The notes under the pieces were generated by a model. The model was not told the DNA's origin. It searched no databases and saw only the letters and a list, made by a program, of their open reading frames with translations. A DNA stretch of 64,000 nucleotides from Bradyrhizobium sp. CCBAU 53340. Lineage in GTDB: Bacteria; Pseudomonadota; Alphaproteobacteria; Rhizobiales; Xanthobacteraceae. Each line of letters opens with the position of its first letter. The stretch's first letter is position 1. The stretch spans positions 4,650,001 to 4,714,000 of the forward strand of contig NZ_CP030055.1 of NCBI RefSeq assembly GCF_015291645.1, in the 5' to 3' direction. A program made the position numbers and the translations under genes. Positions 27,574 through 62,053 of this stretch are shown here, piece by piece.

Positions 27574-27675
27574 GGCGGGAGCGTTTGGCAGGGAAAATGA
27601 GAGGGATCAAGCCTCATTTGGTGATTGCGCAGCCCTTCGGCCAGCCCCATATCGGCCCTGGCCAACCGGCCTTGG

Positions 27676-27728
27676 GGGGAGGACGACCTCCCTGCTCATC
27701 AGCATCTGCCTCGCGGGGACGGCCCTGC
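27676..27728 (+). ncRNA. Guanidine-II (mini-ykkC) riboswitch candidate
   Basis: Two GC-rich hairpins with ACGR tetraloops lie in the leader of the SMR exporter gene. Hairpin 1: gggagg-ACGA-cctccc (27677-27692). Hairpin 2: gcgggg-ACGG-ccctgc (27713-27728). They are 20 bases apart, and the second ends 7 bases before the tGGAGG Shine-Dalgarno (27736-27740). This is the defining pattern of mini-ykkC, which binds free guanidinium through the two loops. cctcc of hairpin 1 can pair with the ggagg Shine-Dalgarno, giving an OFF state without ligand. Confidence 0.88.
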
Positions 27729-54025: not shown

Positions 54026-54400
54026 ATGACTCCCAAGACCTTCGAAGCCCACTGCCTGCGTCTGCCTGCCGCCACCAAGGTGGTGCAATGGGAAGGCACC
54101 TCCGTGTTCAAGGTCGGCGGCAAGATGTTCGCGCTCAGCGGCGGGTATACAGCTGAGTCCGGCGGCTACATGTTCAAGGTCTCGAACATGGCCTATGCCA
54201 TGCTGATCGAGCACGGCTTGGCGCGGCCTGCGCCCTATCTCGCGCGGGCCAAATGGGTGCAGCTTGTCAGCAACAACGCGCTGCCGGATGCGGAGCTGAC
54301 GGCCTATCTGGCGCAGGCCCATGCGCTGATCGTGGCGAAGCTGACAATCAAAAAGCGCAAGGAGCTTGGGCTTCCGTCGCCACACACCGGACTCTCGTGA
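54026..54400 (+). CDS. YjbR/MmcQ family protein
   Basis: A 124-residue protein with the YjbR/CyaY-like DNA-binding fold: FEAHCLRLPAATKVVQWEGT, VFKVGGKMFALSG, and PYLARAKWVQLVSNNALPDA towards the C-terminus. The family has no proven function. It stands 98 bases before the SWIM-MoxR-VWA unit on the same strand but its relation to it is unclear. Confidence 0.87.
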   Translation: MTPKTFEAHCLRLPAATKVVQWEGTSVFKVGGKMFALSGGYTAESGGYMFKVSNMAYAMLIEHGLARPAPYLARAKWVQLVSNNALPDAELTAYLAQAHALIVAKLTIKKRKELGLPSPHTGLS

Positions 54401-54498
54401 CGATCTCCGCGTGCAGCGGGTCACCTGCGCGCGGCGACATTGAGCTTTCATCCTGCCCCGATATACTACCGGTCCTGGATTCGAATTGGGAAGCCGGC

Positions 54499-55881
54499 GT
54501 GGCGATTGATCTGAAAGCGGTCGAGCAACTCGCTACCGATCAATCCTCGCTCAAGGCGGCTGCCGGTCTCGCCAAGCCGGCAAAATGGTCCGGCGTCGGC
54601 GGCAGCCCGGATGGCGCGCTGATCTGGGGCGAATGCGCGGGCTCCGGCGCCAATCCCTACCGGGTGATGGCTGATCTCCGCGATCTCGGCAACAAATGCA
54701 CCTGCCCCTCGCGCAAATTCCCCTGCAAGCACGTGCTCGGCCTGTTGTGGCTCAACGCAGAATCCATCGTGCAATTCGCGCCCGCCGATACGCCGGCCTG
54801 GGTCAGCGACTGGCTCGGGCGCCGGCGCGGCACGTCAGCCGCAAAGCCGGCGACGGCCCCGGCCGGCGACAAGGATCTGCGCGCCGCACGCGCCGTCGAG
54901 CCCGAGGTCACCGAGGATCCAAAGGACGTCGCTCGCCGCGTGGCGCAGGCGGCCAAACGAAATGAAGAGACTGAGCGCGCGATCCTCGATGCGCTGGATG
55001 CGCTCGAGCAATGGATCGGCGACCAGCTCCGCCTGGGATTGTCGAGCTTCATCGACGATGCCACGGCGCGATGCCGGCGCATCGCCGCGCGCCTCGTCGA
55101 TGGCAAAGCCGCGGCGCTTGCCGGTCGTATCGATGAACTACCATCCCGTTTGCTCGCCCTTGCCGCGGGCGACCGGCCACGCGGTGCGATCGTCGAGCTC
55201 GGCAAGCTGGTGCTGCTCGCGCGCGCCTTCCGCGCCACGCCGCGCGATGCCGAGATCCGGCGCGCCGTCGCGACATCGGAGACCCGCGAGACGGTGCTGG
55301 CCGATCCGCAAGCGCCACGCGCGAACGGGCATTGGGAGGTTCTCGCCGAGCAGGTGCAGACGCGCCGCGACGGCCTGGTCTCGCAGACCACATGGCTGCT
55401 CAATCTCGCTGGCAGTGGCCCGCGCTTTGCCATGCTGCTCGACTTCTTCCCGGCAAGCGCCGGCCGGCGCGGCTCGGTGTTCACCTCAGGCGAGCGTTTT
55501 CGGGGCGAGCTGGTGTTCTATCCGTCGCAGCAACCGCTCCGCGCCCTGCTCGTGCGGCGCGACGCCGCCGATGAGACGCTCGCGCACGAATGGCCCGCGC
55601 CGGACGAGGCGCTCTCCGAGGCGTTGACACGGCCGCTGTTGGCCGAGCCGTGGATGCTCGACGTGCCGTTGCTGCTGCCGCAGGGGCGTATCGCACGCGA
55701 TGATGCCGGGCATGCTTGGTGGCGATCCGGCGACGGCACCGCGACATTGCCGGTCGCGAGCAACGCCGAGGGCTTATTGTGCGGCACCGATCTCACCTGC
55801 TCCGCCGCGATCTGGTCAGGCAGCCGCCTCACGATCCTGGCGGCGCAGACCGCATGGGGACGGATCGGCAGCCATGACTGA
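54499..55881 (+). CDS. SWIM zinc-finger protein of the MoxR-VWA cluster
   Basis: A 460-residue protein from GTG 54499 (gggaag 5 bases upstream). The SWIM motif is C67-x-C69-x6-C76-x-H78 in CTCPSRKFPCKHVLGLLWL. It is followed by an Arg/Ala-rich linker and a helical C-terminal part with VASNAEGLLCGTDLTC at the end. E. coli YehQ is the comparable SWIM protein of the yeh cluster. SWIM domains bind DNA or protein; the target is not known. Its stop overlaps the next gene by 8 bases. Confidence 0.85.
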   Translation: MAIDLKAVEQLATDQSSLKAAAGLAKPAKWSGVGGSPDGALIWGECAGSGANPYRVMADLRDLGNKCTCPSRKFPCKHVLGLLWLNAESIVQFAPADTPAWVSDWLGRRRGTSAAKPATAPAGDKDLRAARAVEPEVTEDPKDVARRVAQAAKRNEETERAILDALDALEQWIGDQLRLGLSSFIDDATARCRRIAARLVDGKAAALAGRIDELPSRLLALAAGDRPRGAIVELGKLVLLARAFRATPRDAEIRRAVATSETRETVLADPQAPRANGHWEVLAEQVQTRRDGLVSQTTWLLNLAGSGPRFAMLLDFFPASAGRRGSVFTSGERFRGELVFYPSQQPLRALLVRRDAADETLAHEWPAPDEALSEALTRPLLAEPWMLDVPLLLPQGRIARDDAGHAWWRSGDGTATLPVASNAEGLLCGTDLTCSAAIWSGSRLTILAAQTAWGRIGSHD

Positions 55882-57298
55882 CAAGGCCGACGAAATCTAC
55901 GACGCAATGGGCGCAGTGCTCACGCGCTGGACCATGGGATCGGCGGCGGCCTCAGCTGCTCCCTTTTGGCGCGCCGAACTTGGCGAGGAGCCCGCCGAAG
56001 CAGAGCTGCGGCTGCTCGCTTTGTCGGGCCAGTTCCTTGGCATCACCGTGACGGCAGAGCCGGCATCGACGCTTCGCGTTCTGCCGGACATTCCCACCCT
56101 CGCCTTGCCGACCTTGCCCGAGACGTTGCGTCCGCTGGCGCGCCGAATCCTGGCGGCGAAGAAGCAGGCGCAAGGCAAGACCGAGCTCGTCGACTTTCTG
56201 GCGGCGCGCGGCTGGACCATGCATCCCGCCGACTGGATGCCCACGGCCGGCGATGACGACGCACCAGACGTCTATGCGCCTTGGCGCGATTGGATGGAAT
56301 TTGCAGCGTCGAACAACGCCGCACGGCGGCAGACGAACGACCACATCACTGCCGGCAATTGGGACGATTTCTGGCCTGCCGCGCGCAAAGCGGCGCTGGC
56401 CGAGCTTCGGCGGCACGATCCGTCCGCGGCACGCGCGGTGCTGGAGGCGAAGCTCGGCAACGAAAGTGCCGACACGCGATTGCGCCTGCTGTCGCTGCTC
56501 TCGGAGCGGCTGTCCAACGAGGATATAGCCTTCCTCGAAGCCATCGTGGCGGATGACCGCGCACCCAAGGTCAAGGCACTTGCGACCTCCTTCCTCGCGC
56601 GTCTCGGCCACGGTCCCGCCGCGGGCGAGGAGATCGCGGAGCTTGCCGGCTTCTTCGCGGTGAAGACCAAGGGGCTGCTGCGGCGCTCCCGCGTGATCGA
56701 CTTTCAAACTCCCAAGACGCCGGCACAGTGGCAACGACGGAAAGCCCTCCTCGACGGCACCGACCTGACATCGTTTGCAGGCGCGCTCGGCCTCGCGCCG
56801 CTGGATTTGATCGCCGCCTGGGAGTGGAAGGTGGACACGGCGGCCGACGCCGGGCTGATCAAGCTGATCGCCGAGACCGGCACCGATGCGCAGCTCGCGC
56901 AGGCAGCGCAGATCGTCAGCGAGCATAACGCGGCTGGCTTCATCGTGGCGCTCGCACCGCGTCTCGCGCCGACCGATCGCACTCGGTTCGCGGCGGTAGG
57001 CTTGCATACGCACGGCATCGGCTTTGAGATGGCGCAGGTGATCGCCGGCGCTGCGGCACGCCTGGACGATCCGCTCTCGGCGCCTTCAGGTGTAAAACTG
57101 CTGGCCGAGATCAGGCGCGATGACGCGAAGCCATCCGACCATGCTGCGGAATTTCACGCGCTGGGCCTGCTCACCTCGCAGACGGCGGCGCAGCAGACCT
57201 TGCAGCGCCTGACGGCCGCGGGCCTGCTGCAAGGCGATCCGCGCCTCGACATGCTGCGGCTCAACGCCGCGTTGGACGATCAGGGAGAGAAGCCATGA
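55874..57298 (+). CDS. DUF5691-like protein of the MoxR-VWA cluster
   Basis: A 474-residue, helix-rich soluble protein with HEAT-like runs (AVLEAKLGNESADTRLRLLS; IAFLEAIVADDRAPKVKALA). It matches what I know as the DUF5691 member of SWIM-MoxR-VWA clusters by position and by the LLSLLSERLSNEDIAFLEAI block. No catalytic motif is visible. It may be the scaffold or substrate adaptor for the ATPase. Starts inside the SWIM stop (ATGACTGA) and overlaps the ATPase start by ATGA. The name is from memory of the neighbourhood, so moderately sure. Confidence 0.75.
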   Translation: MTDKADEIYDAMGAVLTRWTMGSAAASAAPFWRAELGEEPAEAELRLLALSGQFLGITVTAEPASTLRVLPDIPTLALPTLPETLRPLARRILAAKKQAQGKTELVDFLAARGWTMHPADWMPTAGDDDAPDVYAPWRDWMEFAASNNAARRQTNDHITAGNWDDFWPAARKAALAELRRHDPSAARAVLEAKLGNESADTRLRLLSLLSERLSNEDIAFLEAIVADDRAPKVKALATSFLARLGHGPAAGEEIAELAGFFAVKTKGLLRRSRVIDFQTPKTPAQWQRRKALLDGTDLTSFAGALGLAPLDLIAAWEWKVDTAADAGLIKLIAETGTDAQLAQAAQIVSEHNAAGFIVALAPRLAPTDRTRFAAVGLHTHGIGFEMAQVIAGAAARLDDPLSAPSGVKLLAEIRRDDAKPSDHAAEFHALGLLTSQTAAQQTLQRLTAAGLLQGDPRLDMLRLNAALDDQGEKP

Positions 57299-58371
57299 GC
57301 GAGAAACTGCGGTTGCCCGCCGAGGAGAGCTTTGCGGCCGAGCTGAAGGCCCTTGCCGCCGGCGAAGGACATCGCCCGCCGGGTTGGGCGCTCTCGCCGC
57401 GCCAGATCGTGACCTATCTGATGGGCGGCAAGGCGGCTGACGGCACGGCGATCACGCCCAAATATGTCGGCGACAAGCGATTGATCGAGACCGCCGTTGC
57501 AACGCTTGCGACCGATCGCGCGCTACTTTTGCTTGGCGTGCCCGGCACCGCCAAGTCGTGGGTCTCCGAGCATCTTGCCGCCGGCATCACCGGCGATTCC
57601 ACGCTCGTGATCCAGTGCACCGCAGGGACCGACGAGAACCAGATCCGCTACGGCTGGAACTATGCCCAGCTGCTCGCCCATGGGCCGAGCCGCGAAGCAC
57701 TGGTGCCGACCCCGCTGATGCGCGCGATGGAAGGCGGCAAGCTCTGCCGCTTCGAAGAGCTGACGCGCATGGGCAGCGACGTGCAGGACACGCTGATCAC
57801 CGTGCTGTCCGAGAAGATGATGCCGATCCCGGAGCTCAACACCGCCGTCTATGCGCAGCGCGGCTTCAACATCATCGCAACCGCCAACAATCGCGACAAG
57901 GGCGTCAACGAGCTGTCCTCCGCGCTCAAGCGCCGCTTCAACGTCGTCGTGTTGCCGCTCCCTGACAGCGCCGAGGAAGAAGTGTCGATCGTCGTCAAGC
58001 GCGTCGGCGAGATGGCGCAGAACCTCGATCTGCCGGCGCCGAAGAACGTCGCCGACGAAGTGGCGCGGGTGGTCGCGATCTTCCGCGAATTGCGCTCGGG
58101 CTCGACCGAGGACGGCAAGGTCGCGCTGAAGTCGCCGTCGGGCGGGCTCTCGACCGCAGAGGCCATCGCCGTGATGGTCGGCGGCATCAGCCAGGCAACC
58201 TTCTTCAACGACGGCAAGCTGACGCCTGAGACGCTCGCCAGCAACATGCTCGGCGCGGTGATCAAGGATCCCGTGCAGGACACCGCCGTGCTCGGCGAAT
58301 ATCTGGAGACCGTGCTGAAGAAGAAGCGCGGCTTCGAAGGCTACTATGCCTCGCTGACCGATCTGATCTGA
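57295..58371 (+). CDS. MoxR-family AAA+ ATPase (YehL-like)
   Basis: A 358-residue AAA+ ATPase. Walker A G81-VPGTAK-S88, Walker B CRFEELTR with F153-E154-E155 (Glu in place of the usual first Asp), sensor 1 IIATANNRDKGVNE, and arginine-rich LSSALKRRFNVVVLPLP. This is the MoxR branch (YehL-like subfamily), thought to work with a VWA partner as a chaperone-like complex that remodels or inserts cofactors in client proteins. The partner is encoded three genes on. It starts within the DUF5691 stop. Confidence 0.92.
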   Translation: MSEKLRLPAEESFAAELKALAAGEGHRPPGWALSPRQIVTYLMGGKAADGTAITPKYVGDKRLIETAVATLATDRALLLLGVPGTAKSWVSEHLAAGITGDSTLVIQCTAGTDENQIRYGWNYAQLLAHGPSREALVPTPLMRAMEGGKLCRFEELTRMGSDVQDTLITVLSEKMMPIPELNTAVYAQRGFNIIATANNRDKGVNELSSALKRRFNVVVLPLPDSAEEEVSIVVKRVGEMAQNLDLPAPKNVADEVARVVAIFRELRSGSTEDGKVALKSPSGGLSTAEAIAVMVGGISQATFFNDGKLTPETLASNMLGAVIKDPVQDTAVLGEYLETVLKKKRGFEGYYASLTDLI

Positions 58372-58375
58372 CACA

Positions 58376-60601
58376 ATGGCCGGCGACATCCATCTGTTCG
58401 GCATCCGGCATCATGGGCCGGGCTCGGCGCGGCGGCTGGTCGAGGCGCTCGACGCGCTGAGACCCGTCGCAATGCTGATCGAGGGCCCTGCGGATGCCTC
58501 CGACCTGCTGCCGATGCTCGCCGACCCCGACATGGTGACGCCGGTGGCGCTGCTCACTTACGCCGAGGACAATCCGGCCAACGCCAGCTTCTTTCCCTTT
58601 GCCGACTACTCGCCGGAATATCAAGCGGCCTGCTGGGCCGCGCGGCATGGTGCGTCCCTGCGTTTCATCGACCTGCCCGCTTCGGACCGGCTAGGCGCCT
58701 CCGCCAGCGATGTCGCAGAGGAAATTGCCGCGAGATCGGAGGAGGATCCGGTCAGCCGCGATCCGATCGGCGCGCTTGCGGCCGCCGCCGGCTATGACGA
58801 CGGCGAGTCTTGGTGGTCCGATGTCATCGAGGAAAATCCTGCGACCGGTCCCGTGTTCGCAGCCGTCGCAGATGCGATGACCGCGCTGCGCGCGGACGAA
58901 AAACCGCTCTCGGCCCGCGAGGCCGCGCGCGAGGCGCATATGCGGATCGAGATCGCCAAGGCGGCGAAGGAATACGACGGCGCCGTCGCGGTCGTCTGCG
59001 GCGCCTGGCACGTGCCGGCACTGACCGAGCGCCGGAGCCTGGCGGCCGACCGCGAATTGCTCAAGGGTCGGCCGAAGACGAAGATCAAGGCGACCTGGGC
59101 ACCGTGGACCGCGCCGCGTCTGGCACGCGCCAGCGGCTATGGCGCAGGCGTGGTCGCGCCCGGCTGGTGCGCGCATCTCTGGGAGACGCGTGACGGCGAT
59201 CGCACTGCCATCTGGCTTGCGAAGGTGAGCCGCGTGCTGCGCGATCGCGGTCATTTCGTCTCGACCGCCTCCGTGATCGAGGCGCAGCGTCTCGGCGTGG
59301 CGCTGGCGGCATTGCGCGAACGCCCCTCGCCCGGCTTCGAGGAGCTCCGCCAGGCGGCGATCGCCTGCCTGTGCAACGGCGAGCGCGCCATGTGGAACGA
59401 CATTGCCGCCGAGCTCCTGGTCGGCGCAGGTGTCGGATCGATTCCGTCATCGACGCCGCTGGCGCCGCTGCTGGAGGATCTCCAGCGCCAGCAGAAAGCG
59501 ACGCGGCTGAAACCGGAAGCGCTGGAGCGGCCGCTGACGCTCGACCTGCGCAGTGAAAGCGGGCTGATGCGTTCGACGCTGCTGCACCGGCTCAATGCAC
59601 TCGACGTGCCCTGGGGGCAGTTGACGGACGCCGGCCGCAGCCGCGGAACGTTCCGGGAGAACTGGCAGCTGCGCTGGGAGCCGGAATTCGCGGTGCGGCT
59701 GGTAGAGAACCTGCTCTATGGCTCAACCATCATGGACGCCGCCGCCGGCCGCCTGATCGAAGCGATGGGCAAGGAGACGGAGCTCGGCGCGCTGGCGGGC
59801 CTCGTACGCAACGCCATGATCGCGGATCTGCCGCGCGCCACAGAATCCGGGATCGCAGCGCTCGAAACCAAGGCAGCCCTCACCAGCGACGGCCAGTCAC
59901 TGCTCGACGCACTGCCGCCGATGGCCGACATCCTGCGCTATGGCGAGGCGCGTGCCGGCACCGCCGAGCATCTCGCGGCCCTGATGCCGCGGATCGTGGT
60001 GCAGGCGGCGCTTGCCCTGCCCTACGCCGCCCGCAATCTGGATGTGCCCGCCGCAGCCAAGCTGCGCGGCGCGATCCTCGCAGGCGATGCCGCGATCCAG
60101 CTGGCCCAGCTCGATCCAGACGTCGTCAGCAGATGGCGCGAGGCGCTGACGGCCCTGCTACACGATGACCAGACGACCCGGCTGATCGCCGGCACGGCGG
60201 CACGGTTGCTCTATGAGGCGAAGCTGCTGGCTGCCGAACACACCGCGGACCTGCTTGCGCGGATGCTGTCACCGGGCACACCAATTGCCGAGGCGGCAGG
60301 TTTCTTCGAAGGCTTCTTCGAGGGTGCGGGCCAGCGGCTGATCCACGATGCGGCCTTGCGCGGCGCGGTCGACGGCTGGCTGCTGTCGCTCGATGACGAG
60401 GCCTTCACGGCCAGCCTGCCGCTATTCCGCCGCGTCTTCTCGGCGCTGGACCGTAACGAGCGCAGGCGGCTGATGGATGCGCTGTTTGCGCGGAACACGG
60501 GCGGCGCGAAAGGATATCGGCTGATCGCAGATGCCGCCGCGATCTGGCCGCAGCACGAGGCGCGTGTGCTTGCACTGCTCAACGCCGGAGCCCCCCGATG
60601 A
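58376..60601 (+). CDS. DUF5682-like protein, possible TraB/ChaN-superfamily hydrolase
   Basis: A 741-residue protein that starts 4 bases after the ATPase gene. N-terminal block: LFGIRHHGPGSARRLVEALD (H12-H13-G-P-G-S), MLIEGPADASDLLP (about residue 34) and VVCGAWHVPALTE (residues 206-218). The HHGPGS / EGP / GAxH order recalls the TraB/GumN/ChaN/EreA superfamily of predicted hydrolases. The rest (about 300-741) is helical and repetitive. In E. coli the corresponding gene is probably yehM. Function unknown; the hydrolase idea is inference from three motifs. Confidence 0.82.
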   Translation: MAGDIHLFGIRHHGPGSARRLVEALDALRPVAMLIEGPADASDLLPMLADPDMVTPVALLTYAEDNPANASFFPFADYSPEYQAACWAARHGASLRFIDLPASDRLGASASDVAEEIAARSEEDPVSRDPIGALAAAAGYDDGESWWSDVIEENPATGPVFAAVADAMTALRADEKPLSAREAAREAHMRIEIAKAAKEYDGAVAVVCGAWHVPALTERRSLAADRELLKGRPKTKIKATWAPWTAPRLARASGYGAGVVAPGWCAHLWETRDGDRTAIWLAKVSRVLRDRGHFVSTASVIEAQRLGVALAALRERPSPGFEELRQAAIACLCNGERAMWNDIAAELLVGAGVGSIPSSTPLAPLLEDLQRQQKATRLKPEALERPLTLDLRSESGLMRSTLLHRLNALDVPWGQLTDAGRSRGTFRENWQLRWEPEFAVRLVENLLYGSTIMDAAAGRLIEAMGKETELGALAGLVRNAMIADLPRATESGIAALETKAALTSDGQSLLDALPPMADILRYGEARAGTAEHLAALMPRIVVQAALALPYAARNLDVPAAAKLRGAILAGDAAIQLAQLDPDVVSRWREALTALLHDDQTTRLIAGTAARLLYEAKLLAAEHTADLLARMLSPGTPIAEAAGFFEGFFEGAGQRLIHDAALRGAVDGWLLSLDDEAFTASLPLFRRVFSALDRNERRRLMDALFARNTGGAKGYRLIADAAAIWPQHEARVLALLNAGAPR

Positions 60602-61779
60602 GCGAGATCGACGAGCGCAATCGCCGCTGGACGCTGGCCCTCGGTGTTGACGCTGAGGATCCCGGCAACGCTGGCGCGCTGTCCGACAGCGACCGCCGCA
60701 TGTCGGAGGCCCTAACGGCGCTTTACGGCAACGGCGACGAGGCGCCGAAGAAGGGCCGCGGCGGACTTGGCGGCTCGGCTCCGCGCGTCGCGAAATGGCT
60801 CGGTGATATCAGGGAGTTCTTCCCCGCTCCGGTCGTGCAGGTGATCCAGAAGGATGCGTTCGAGCGCAAGGGGCTGCGCCAGATGCTACTCGAGCCCGAA
60901 TTCCTCGCAACCGTCGAAGCCGACGTGAACCTTATCGCCGATCTGGTCGCGCTCCGCGGCGTGATGCCGGAGAAGACCAGGGACACCGCGCGGATCGTGA
61001 TCGCAAAGGTGGTGGCCGAGCTGATGGAGCGGCTCGAGCGACGCACGGCAGACGCAGTCCGCGGCGCGCTGAACCGTTCGCTGCGAACCAATCGCCCGCG
61101 CTTTGCCGACATCGACTGGCCGCGCACCATCAAGGCCAATCTGCGCCACTACCAGCCAGAGCATCGCACCGTGGTGCCGGAGCGGCTGATCGGTTTCCTG
61201 CGCCAGCAGCGCCGCATCGTCGATCTCGATGAGGTCATTCTATGCGTCGACCAATCAGGGTCGATGGCGACCTCCGTCGTCTACGCCTCGATCTTCGCGG
61301 CCGTGATGGCCTCGCTGCCGGTCGTGGCCACCAAGCTTGTCTGTTTCGATACCGCGATCGTCGACCTGACCGGGGAGCTCGCCGATCCCGTCGAGGTTCT
61401 GTTCGGCGTTCAGCTCGGCGGCGGCACCGATATCAACAGCGCGGTCGCCTATTGCGAGGAGCGCATCGAGCGGCCCTCCAAGGCGCATCTGATCCTGATC
61501 ACCGACCTTTATGAGGGCGGCAATGCGGATACGCTGGTCGACCGGCTGGCCCGGCTCGCAACGCGCGGGATCAACGTGATCGTGCTGCTGGCGCTGACCG
61601 ACACTGGCCGCCCGTCCTACGACCCGGTGCTGTCGGCGCGCGTTGCCAGTCTCGGCATCCCGGTCTTTGCCTGCACGCCGGACCAGTTTCCCGATCTGAT
61701 GGCGACCGCATTGAAGCGCGAGGACGTCGCCGACTGGGCCGCCGATCAGGATATCAAAATGATCCGGCCCGAAGGATGA
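60598..61779 (+). CDS. VWA (CoxE-like) domain protein
   Basis: A 393-residue protein. The C-terminal VWA domain has an intact MIDAS: DQSGSM with D218, S220 and S222, LGGGTDINSAVAY (Thr) and LILITDLYEGG (Asp). The N-terminal 180 residues are helical and charged. VWA proteins pair with MoxR ATPases and use the MIDAS metal to bind partners (CoxE, YehP). Overlaps the upstream gene by ATGA. It is the last gene of the five-gene unit. Confidence 0.92.
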   Translation: MSEIDERNRRWTLALGVDAEDPGNAGALSDSDRRMSEALTALYGNGDEAPKKGRGGLGGSAPRVAKWLGDIREFFPAPVVQVIQKDAFERKGLRQMLLEPEFLATVEADVNLIADLVALRGVMPEKTRDTARIVIAKVVAELMERLERRTADAVRGALNRSLRTNRPRFADIDWPRTIKANLRHYQPEHRTVVPERLIGFLRQQRRIVDLDEVILCVDQSGSMATSVVYASIFAAVMASLPVVATKLVCFDTAIVDLTGELADPVEVLFGVQLGGGTDINSAVAYCEERIERPSKAHLILITDLYEGGNADTLVDRLARLATRGINVIVLLALTDTGRPSYDPVLSARVASLGIPVFACTPDQFPDLMATALKREDVADWAADQDIKMIRPEG

Positions 61780-61785
61780 ATTCAG

Positions 61786-62025
61786 CTAAAGCTCCGCCTC
61801 GCCGAAGATCCTGCTGATCCAGTCCAGAAAGACGCGCAGCCGCAGCGTGAGCTGGCGGTTTTGTGGATAGAGCGCCGACAGCGGCGTCGGCGACGGCGGA
61901 TGGTCCGCCAGCACCTCGACCAGCGCGCCGCTGGCCAGATCCTCTGCGAAACGATAGCGCGGCGCCTGCACGAGGCCAAAGCCAAGCCGATGAAGTGTTC
62001 GTGATCCCTCCGGCATACCGGGCAA
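61786..62025 (-). pseudogene. LysR-family regulator remnant (C-terminal end only)
   Basis: About 79 codons remain. GLVQAPRYRFAEDLASGALV and SALYPQNRQLTLRLRVFLDW are characteristic of the last part of the LysR effector-binding domain, but the DNA-binding domain and most of the effector domain are absent, and upstream sequence is unrelated. The first residues (MPGMPEGSRTLHRL) look random. It is the trace of a deletion at about 61985-62030, next to the MarR-GNAT gene. Confidence 0.8.
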
Positions 62026-62053
62026 AGAGTTGAGGCAATTGACGGTGGATTAA

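Follow-up and report, generated by a model that had tools for sequence, protein, structure and literature searches.

A five-gene unit co-inherited across phyla

What is the target of a MoxR-type AAA+ ATPase and its von Willebrand factor A (VWA) partner when the two are encoded together with three further proteins? This question is raised by a five-gene unit in Bradyrhizobium sp. CCBAU 53340, which lies in a 64,000-nucleotide stretch of contig NZ_CP030055.1 (positions 4,650,001 to 4,714,000; hereafter the window) and codes, in order, for a SWIM zinc-finger protein, a DUF5691 protein, the ATPase, a DUF5682 protein and the VWA protein. The best candidate client appears to lie within the operon itself, namely DUF5682, a predicted hydrolase, and we regard it as an evenly balanced proposition that the unit is one ATP-driven machine, a switched hydrolase rather than a general chaperone. 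A preliminary description of this DNA had placed the five genes at 54499-61779, joined in order by an 8-base overlap, an ATGA, a 4-base gap and an ATGA. The coordinates bore this out, and each protein exceeded the cut-off of its Pfam model (bits, with cut-off in brackets: SWIM 28.4 (19.6), DUF5691 70.5 (27), AAA_5 127 (22), DUF5682 705.7 (26), VWA_CoxE 173.3 (26.4)); no NCBIfam model was reached above cut-off by any of the five. The further claim that the proteins are made in fixed ratio is not implied by translational coupling. The 8.7-Mb genome holds a single DUF5682 match.

A scan of named genomes yielded at least 576 DUF5682 relatives, the best 80 of which were retained; because these were ranked by likeness to a query of the window's type (type I), they speak for type I. 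The other four genes were located with profiles built from the matches in three rounds. All five genes occurred in order at 69 of the 80 loci, and at 65 of the 67 with sufficient flank on both sides, the two exceptions being cyanobacterial (L090 and L119). The 80 loci span 11 named phyla, with two loci lacking a phylum name. As 69 of them retain the five-gene arrangement, it is not due to chance. SWIM and DUF5691 are fused into one gene at two loci, planctomycete L081 and actinomycete L089; a joint alignment on this natural fusion was dropped because it matched DUF5691 rows to the SWIM half. Pairwise distances among the five proteins at the 69 loci were correlated (Spearman 0.80-0.89), as might equally arise from common descent alone, and median identity was highest for the ATPase (65%) and lowest for DUF5691 (20%).

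Presence and absence matched as well. DUF5682 was found in 12 of 299 sampled genomes of the window's phylum, and division by DUF5682 bit score (type I, ≥658; type II, ≤371) gave six genomes with type I and seven with type II, one having both. DUF5691 exceeded its cut-off in exactly the six type I genomes, and two more matches, below the cut-off, fell in genomes without DUF5682. Among 17 genomes picked for having DUF5682, 16 had an ATPase of the same class, including two cyanobacteria (G338, G339) in which it lies away from DUF5682; the one genome lacking it (G341) was binned from a metagenome. By these sequence comparisons the five genes are one co-inherited module, as the synteny survey suggested in the preliminary description indicated, and the notion of one machine is supported by cross-phylum synteny and the two fusions, as well as by the agreement of the genes in presence and absence and in their divergence. 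In Allochromatium warmingii (L104:7832-9849), genes are inserted between those for the ATPase and DUF5682, the first of which resembles a cytosine methyltransferase by eye.

DUF5682 is a predicted TraB/TIKI-type hydrolase

The structure model of DUF5682 comprises an N-terminal alpha/beta domain (residues 1 to ~245; predicted local distance difference test score 91.9) and a helical C-terminal part (~394-735). In alignment, its GxxH, Glu, RExxM and second GxxH fall in register with those of TraB/PrgY/GumN (23 rows, one with stops dropped), and in the model each GxxH directly follows a strand, in a strand order that would suit the parallel beta-sheet core of the TIKI fold. The structure alignment comprised 65 of the 80 named loci (15 near-duplicates or fragments removed by hand), nine other loci and the window protein. 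No variation was seen at the putative catalytic residues (Table 1, where counts are alignment rows having the residue at that position); G9 is replaced by Pro in seven rows. All four motifs are retained in a third version of the unit (MT835988), whose DUF5682 is 29% identical, and there Leu replaces the second His of RHH, an indication that H12 is the functional one. A fold search in a viral library ranked TraB first with a probability of 0.97, at a weak expectation value (E) of 0.075.

Whole-model fold searches against the PDB gave no TIKI-fold protein among the matches listed, which were filled by helical repeats; Pfam PF01963 (TraB_PrgY_gumN) did not match DUF5682 at E up to 1; and no solved sequence matched below E 0.05, with ATP synthase b subunits making up all nine entries listed. 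Each line of evidence for a hydrolase is modest, and we lowered our confidence slightly because the ChaN and single-type alignments span only part of the domain. A comparison with erythromycin esterases gave no match and was uninformative, having only five rows, seemingly starting past the first motif, and failing for the known relative TraB too. On balance, DUF5682 is likely to belong to the TraB/TIKI kind, with an N-terminal domain predicted from sequence and model to be a hydrolase, probably a peptidase or related enzyme.

The ATPase and its VWA partner

The window ATPase shows the traits of a MoxR AAA+/VWA pair, namely the AAA_5 match, homology to E. coli YehL (E 1.9e-69) and an adjoining VWA gene with a predicted metal ion-dependent adhesion site (MIDAS). 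YehL is described in two reviews as the namesake of a recognised subfamily of MoxR proteins, based on sequence and local gene structure (PMC3893208, PMC11432383). The Pfam MoxR models were not reached, with AAA_3 (PF07726) at 18.1 against a cut-off of 27 and bpMoxR (PF20030, for beta-propeller systems) at 24.1 against 27; however, AAA_3 does not define the YehL subfamily, because an ATPase of the E. coli type, from the type II stretch L029, also stays below, at 18.7. Seven solved sequences matched the ATPase, the best being midasin (E 3.1e-14) and NorQ being among them, whereas a sequence search at E up to 1 gave no solved match for either the SWIM or the VWA protein.

The motifs had been described as intact throughout. 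This holds for Walker A, MIDAS and SWIM, and for Walker B in part, as every row has Glu-Glu and not Asp-Glu. The ATPase core also retains an Asn (98/98) and an Arg (99/99), which we take to be sensor 1 and the Arg finger, respectively.

The SWIM and DUF5691 proteins

In its model, the SWIM protein consists of the SWIM module, a low-confidence segment (109-128), helices (141-268) and, at the C-terminus, a beta-rich region (274-457), perhaps a pair of oligonucleotide/oligosaccharide-binding (OB) folds. Its finger is like that of ZSWIM8. DUF5691 scored 19.9 bits with HEAT_2, under the cut-off of 27.7, and is possibly HEAT-like. A profile comparison of DUF5691 with DUF4132, the partner of the second type described below, did not show them to be related (probability 6).

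A second subtype includes E. coli yehLMPQ

Type II was found in 10 of a set of 20 stretches and in E. coli. The genes for the ATPase, DUF5682 and the VWA protein are adjacent in 18 of the 20, the exceptions being a stretch at a contig end (L040) and one with another gene in between (L042). A relative of the SWIM-protein gene of L029 comes next in six of the 10 type II stretches, and for L029 and YehQ the presence of the SWIM domain itself was verified. DUF4132 occurred in all seven type II genomes of the 299, compared to two of the other 292; two type I units (L101 and L110) also have a DUF4132 gene 19 and 24 bases downstream. Among five DUF4132 proteins scanned, HEAT repeats exceeded the cut-off in two (L029, L110), not in YehI, and a WGR domain was found in one (L042), with those of L039 and L040 starting similarly by eye.

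The preliminary description had called the yehL-yehM-yehP-yehQ set of E. coli similar, which holds for the presence of a SWIM protein and for the ATPase, DUF5682 and VWA genes, which are neighbours in an unchanged order. It is not the same set: the SWIM gene comes last, and a comparison of the window SWIM family with the YehQ family gave a probability of 4 over only 20 columns, at the finger; DUF5691 was not matched in E. coli, used as a control in the genome scan; the DUF4132 gene yehI lies upstream, separated from yehL by yehK; and DUF5682 is 24% identical. By sequence, yehLMPQ represents another subtype, one that goes with DUF4132. The DUF5682 gene of this subtype, yehM, was matched in 5284 of 5426 E. 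coli genomes, 5166 of the matches covering ≥80% of its length.

The unit comes and goes as a cassette

DUF5682 was present in nine of 41 genomes (that of the window and 40 relatives), all nine among the 25 of the genus. In four genomes without it (G008, G016, G022, G011) both flanks are kept and a 7.7-kb block is missing: their likeness to the window ends at 54372 in all four and restarts at 62038-62053, with 48 to 1885 bases in between. As judged from sequence comparison, the unit comes and goes as a cassette, and the four relatives fit gain or loss alike. Plasmid copies exist as well, with a complete type I unit in Rhizobium etli and, in Methylosinus, four of the five genes annotated, the VWA gene being absent from an incomplete gene table.

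Two further plasmids were observed. Iodobacter fluviatilis plasmid pl1 (L184), which is mobilizable, has a type II unit with two DUF4132 genes beside a type I restriction cluster and transposases, and the yehI-to-yohO stretch of an IncF plasmid of E. coli (L185; NZ_CP103756.1) is flanked by two IS26 transposase genes. A phage-borne unit was considered and rejected, as the sole phage record matched, MT835988.1 (L191), filed as a bacteriophage with MoxR, DUF5682 and VWA genes, is an unverified scaffold that is probably mislabelled because its other genes, e.g. one for an MgsA-type ATPase, look bacterial. Near this third version of the unit lie genes for DUF5717 and DUF5716 (L191:7830-12721), families whose function is also unassigned.

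Coordinates and surroundings

Table 1. Features of the unit in window coordinates.
Feature	Position	Strand	Detail
SWIM zinc-finger protein	54499..55881	+	460 aa, GTG start
SWIM ligands C-x-C-x6-C-x-H, residues 67-78	54697..54732	+	kept in 78/78 rows
DUF5691 protein	55874..57298	+	474 aa
AAA+ ATPase, YehL/NorQ/midasin kind	57295..58371	+	358 aa
Walker A LLGVPGTAKS	57529..57558	+	Lys 97/97
Walker B region LCRFEELTRM	57742..57771	+	Glu-Glu 98/98
DUF5682 protein	58376..60601	+	741 aa
First GxxH (G9-H12)	58400..58411	+	directly after strand 4-10; H12 101/101 rows
E36	58481..58483	+	102/102 rows; within strand 32-38
E186 of REAxMR	58931..58933	+	102/102 rows; at position of TraB RNxxW/M
Second GxxH (G209-H212)	59000..59011	+	H212 102/102; directly after strand 203-209
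VWA (CoxE-like) protein with MIDAS	60598..61779	+	393 aa
MIDAS D-x-S-x-S, residues 216-223	61243..61266	+	Asp and first Ser 93/93
MIDAS T and D ligands	61414-61434 and 61495-61518	+	Thr 91/93
Block missing in four relatives keeping both flanks	54373..62038		genome comparison

Upstream of the SWIM gene, stress-regulator patterns of the LexA, RpoH, CIRCE and Deinococcus types were found in none of 76 regions, the gene starts of which were not individually checked. Just 3' of the VWA gene, window positions ~61800-61990 have likeness elsewhere in other genomes, mostly upstream of the flank; this may be a truncated LysR gene, because L026 has a LysR-type gene there. The sole Rfam match at threshold in the window was a Guanidine-II riboswitch (mini-ykkC) at 27675-27727 on the + strand (35.2 bits; gathering score 32).

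The proposed machine and its alternatives

In the machine that we propose, the AAA+ protein would form a ring with its pore plugged by the VWA protein, by analogy with NorQ-NorD and midasin. The MIDAS would grip a partner, most likely DUF5682 alone or with its substrate, and ATP hydrolysis would open or arm the DUF5682 hydrolase. The SWIM/OB-like protein and DUF5691 could serve as a recognition arm, perhaps for nucleic acid or nucleoprotein.

The main rival makes DUF5682 a client in the NorQD sense, in that the AAA+/VWA pair would be a maturation factor that opens DUF5682, inserts a metal and leaves. NorQD offers a precedent, since it is described as serving iron insertion into nitric oxide reductase, and the predicted His/Glu site of DUF5682 as well as the position of its gene between those for the ATPase and the VWA protein, in all loci with all five genes and in 18 of the 20 stretches, agree with such a role. 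However, the SWIM and DUF5691 proteins are left unexplained, and a metal in DUF5682 is hypothetical, and some TIKI enzymes catalyse without one; we find this reading rather unlikely. Both readings make DUF5682 the partner of the ring, which would be needed once for maturation and in every cycle for a switched hydrolase.

A chaperone for quality control or assembly, without hydrolysis and with DUF5682 as a scaffold whose active site is dead, would accord with the helical part making up nearly half of DUF5682, and chaperone-like roles are proposed for MoxR proteins generally in PMC3893208. We rate it as quite unlikely, as a dead site would not need catalytic residues that are invariant even in a 29%-identical relative, and DUF5682 of any type is found in so few of the 299 genomes.

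If the unit is a switched hydrolase, a narrower version would have it cleave or strip proteins held by nucleic acids, with the SWIM/OB arm finding them, the AAA+/VWA ring pulling and DUF5682 cutting. We hold this version very doubtful; it draws on hints only, namely the SWIM OB-like folds, the WGR domain of a DUF4132 partner, and links to DdrO and LexA. According to PMC8533742, DUF4132 and WGR relatives of Deinococcus radiodurans are reported to rise in expression when the DNA-damage repressor DdrO is lost, and MolR is described in the LexA regulon. If true, the machine would be a bacterial answer to the pairing of a protease with Cdc48/p97. Eukaryotes employ that pairing against DNA-bound proteins.

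Least probable is the role in defence that had been left open at the outset, here as an anti-phage or conflict system of the MoxR-VWA ternary kind: the patchy, cassette-like presence, the plasmid copies, the type II copy beside restriction genes, the methyltransferase-like insert and an AAA+-VWA core as in PMC7159879 would fit it, but it was not supported, as the best PADLOC-DB 2.0.0 match had E 0.02 (IetA, 29 residues of the ATPase), bpMoxR stayed below its cut-off (a model that does not cover other conflict subsystems), the same five families recur at 69 of 80 loci with no variable effectors, in a scan that favoured near relatives, no defence-like family was seen on reading the neighbour clusters printed (built without 11 near-duplicate loci and open reading frames <70 aa, and not scanned with PADLOC), and yehM is near-universal in E. 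coli.

Significance and comparison with known systems

Few clients have been identified for the widespread MoxR/VWA pairs. In this unit, the probable client or working part is encoded in the same operon. The named candidate active-site residues make a function for yehL, yehM, yehP and yehQ testable by a few point mutants, and if DUF5682 is a hydrolase switched by an AAA+/VWA ring, the result would be a type of ATP-gated hydrolase without description in the open-licence literature searched. In that literature, the words DUF5682 and DUF5691 were not found, and two or more of the four yeh gene names occurred together only in two papers that are genome resources, as judged by title; a hit for 'yehL' in phage literature was an author's name. 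The unit itself belongs to the known MoxR/VWA kind. We found no description, in the mainly open-licence literature covered (subscription journals being mostly outside), of DUF5682 as a hydrolase, of two subtypes that switch partners, or of the fusions. The original MoxR classification paper may describe the yeh neighbours, and the SWIM domain paper of 2002 may hold a remark on SWIM genes beside MoxR/VWA genes.

Among known systems, the TIKI superfamily (TraB/PrgY/GumN, ChaN and Tiki) shares with DUF5682 the register of GxxH, Glu, R-x-x-x-W/M and GxxH, whereas DUF5682 has no Pfam-level match to it, has an added helical part and is encoded in an AAA+ operon. Apart from the finger, no domain was found in common between the window SWIM protein and ZSWIM8, which acts in a CUL3 complex. 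The MoxR-vWA ternary conflict systems, as described in PMC7159879, likewise join MoxR and VWA proteins to further partners, but the third partners differ, no exchangeable effectors were seen and bpMoxR is not reached.

Similar to the proposed core are NorQ-NorD and its kin (CbbQ-CbbO, CoxD-CoxE and RavA-ViaA), which also combine a MoxR-kind AAA+ protein with a VWA protein having a MIDAS, and for NorQD the literature places a finger of the VWA protein in the hexamer pore; the window unit differs in its five partners, the predicted hydrolase inside it and the Glu-Glu of Walker B. Midasin (Rea1/Mdn1) is the best-scoring solved match of the ATPase and has a VWA domain of the MIDAS type, yet it is a single very large eukaryotic polypeptide that works on precursors of the ribosome, in contrast to a unit of five genes. 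We know of no hydrolase in midasin; the window unit would have its own in DUF5682.

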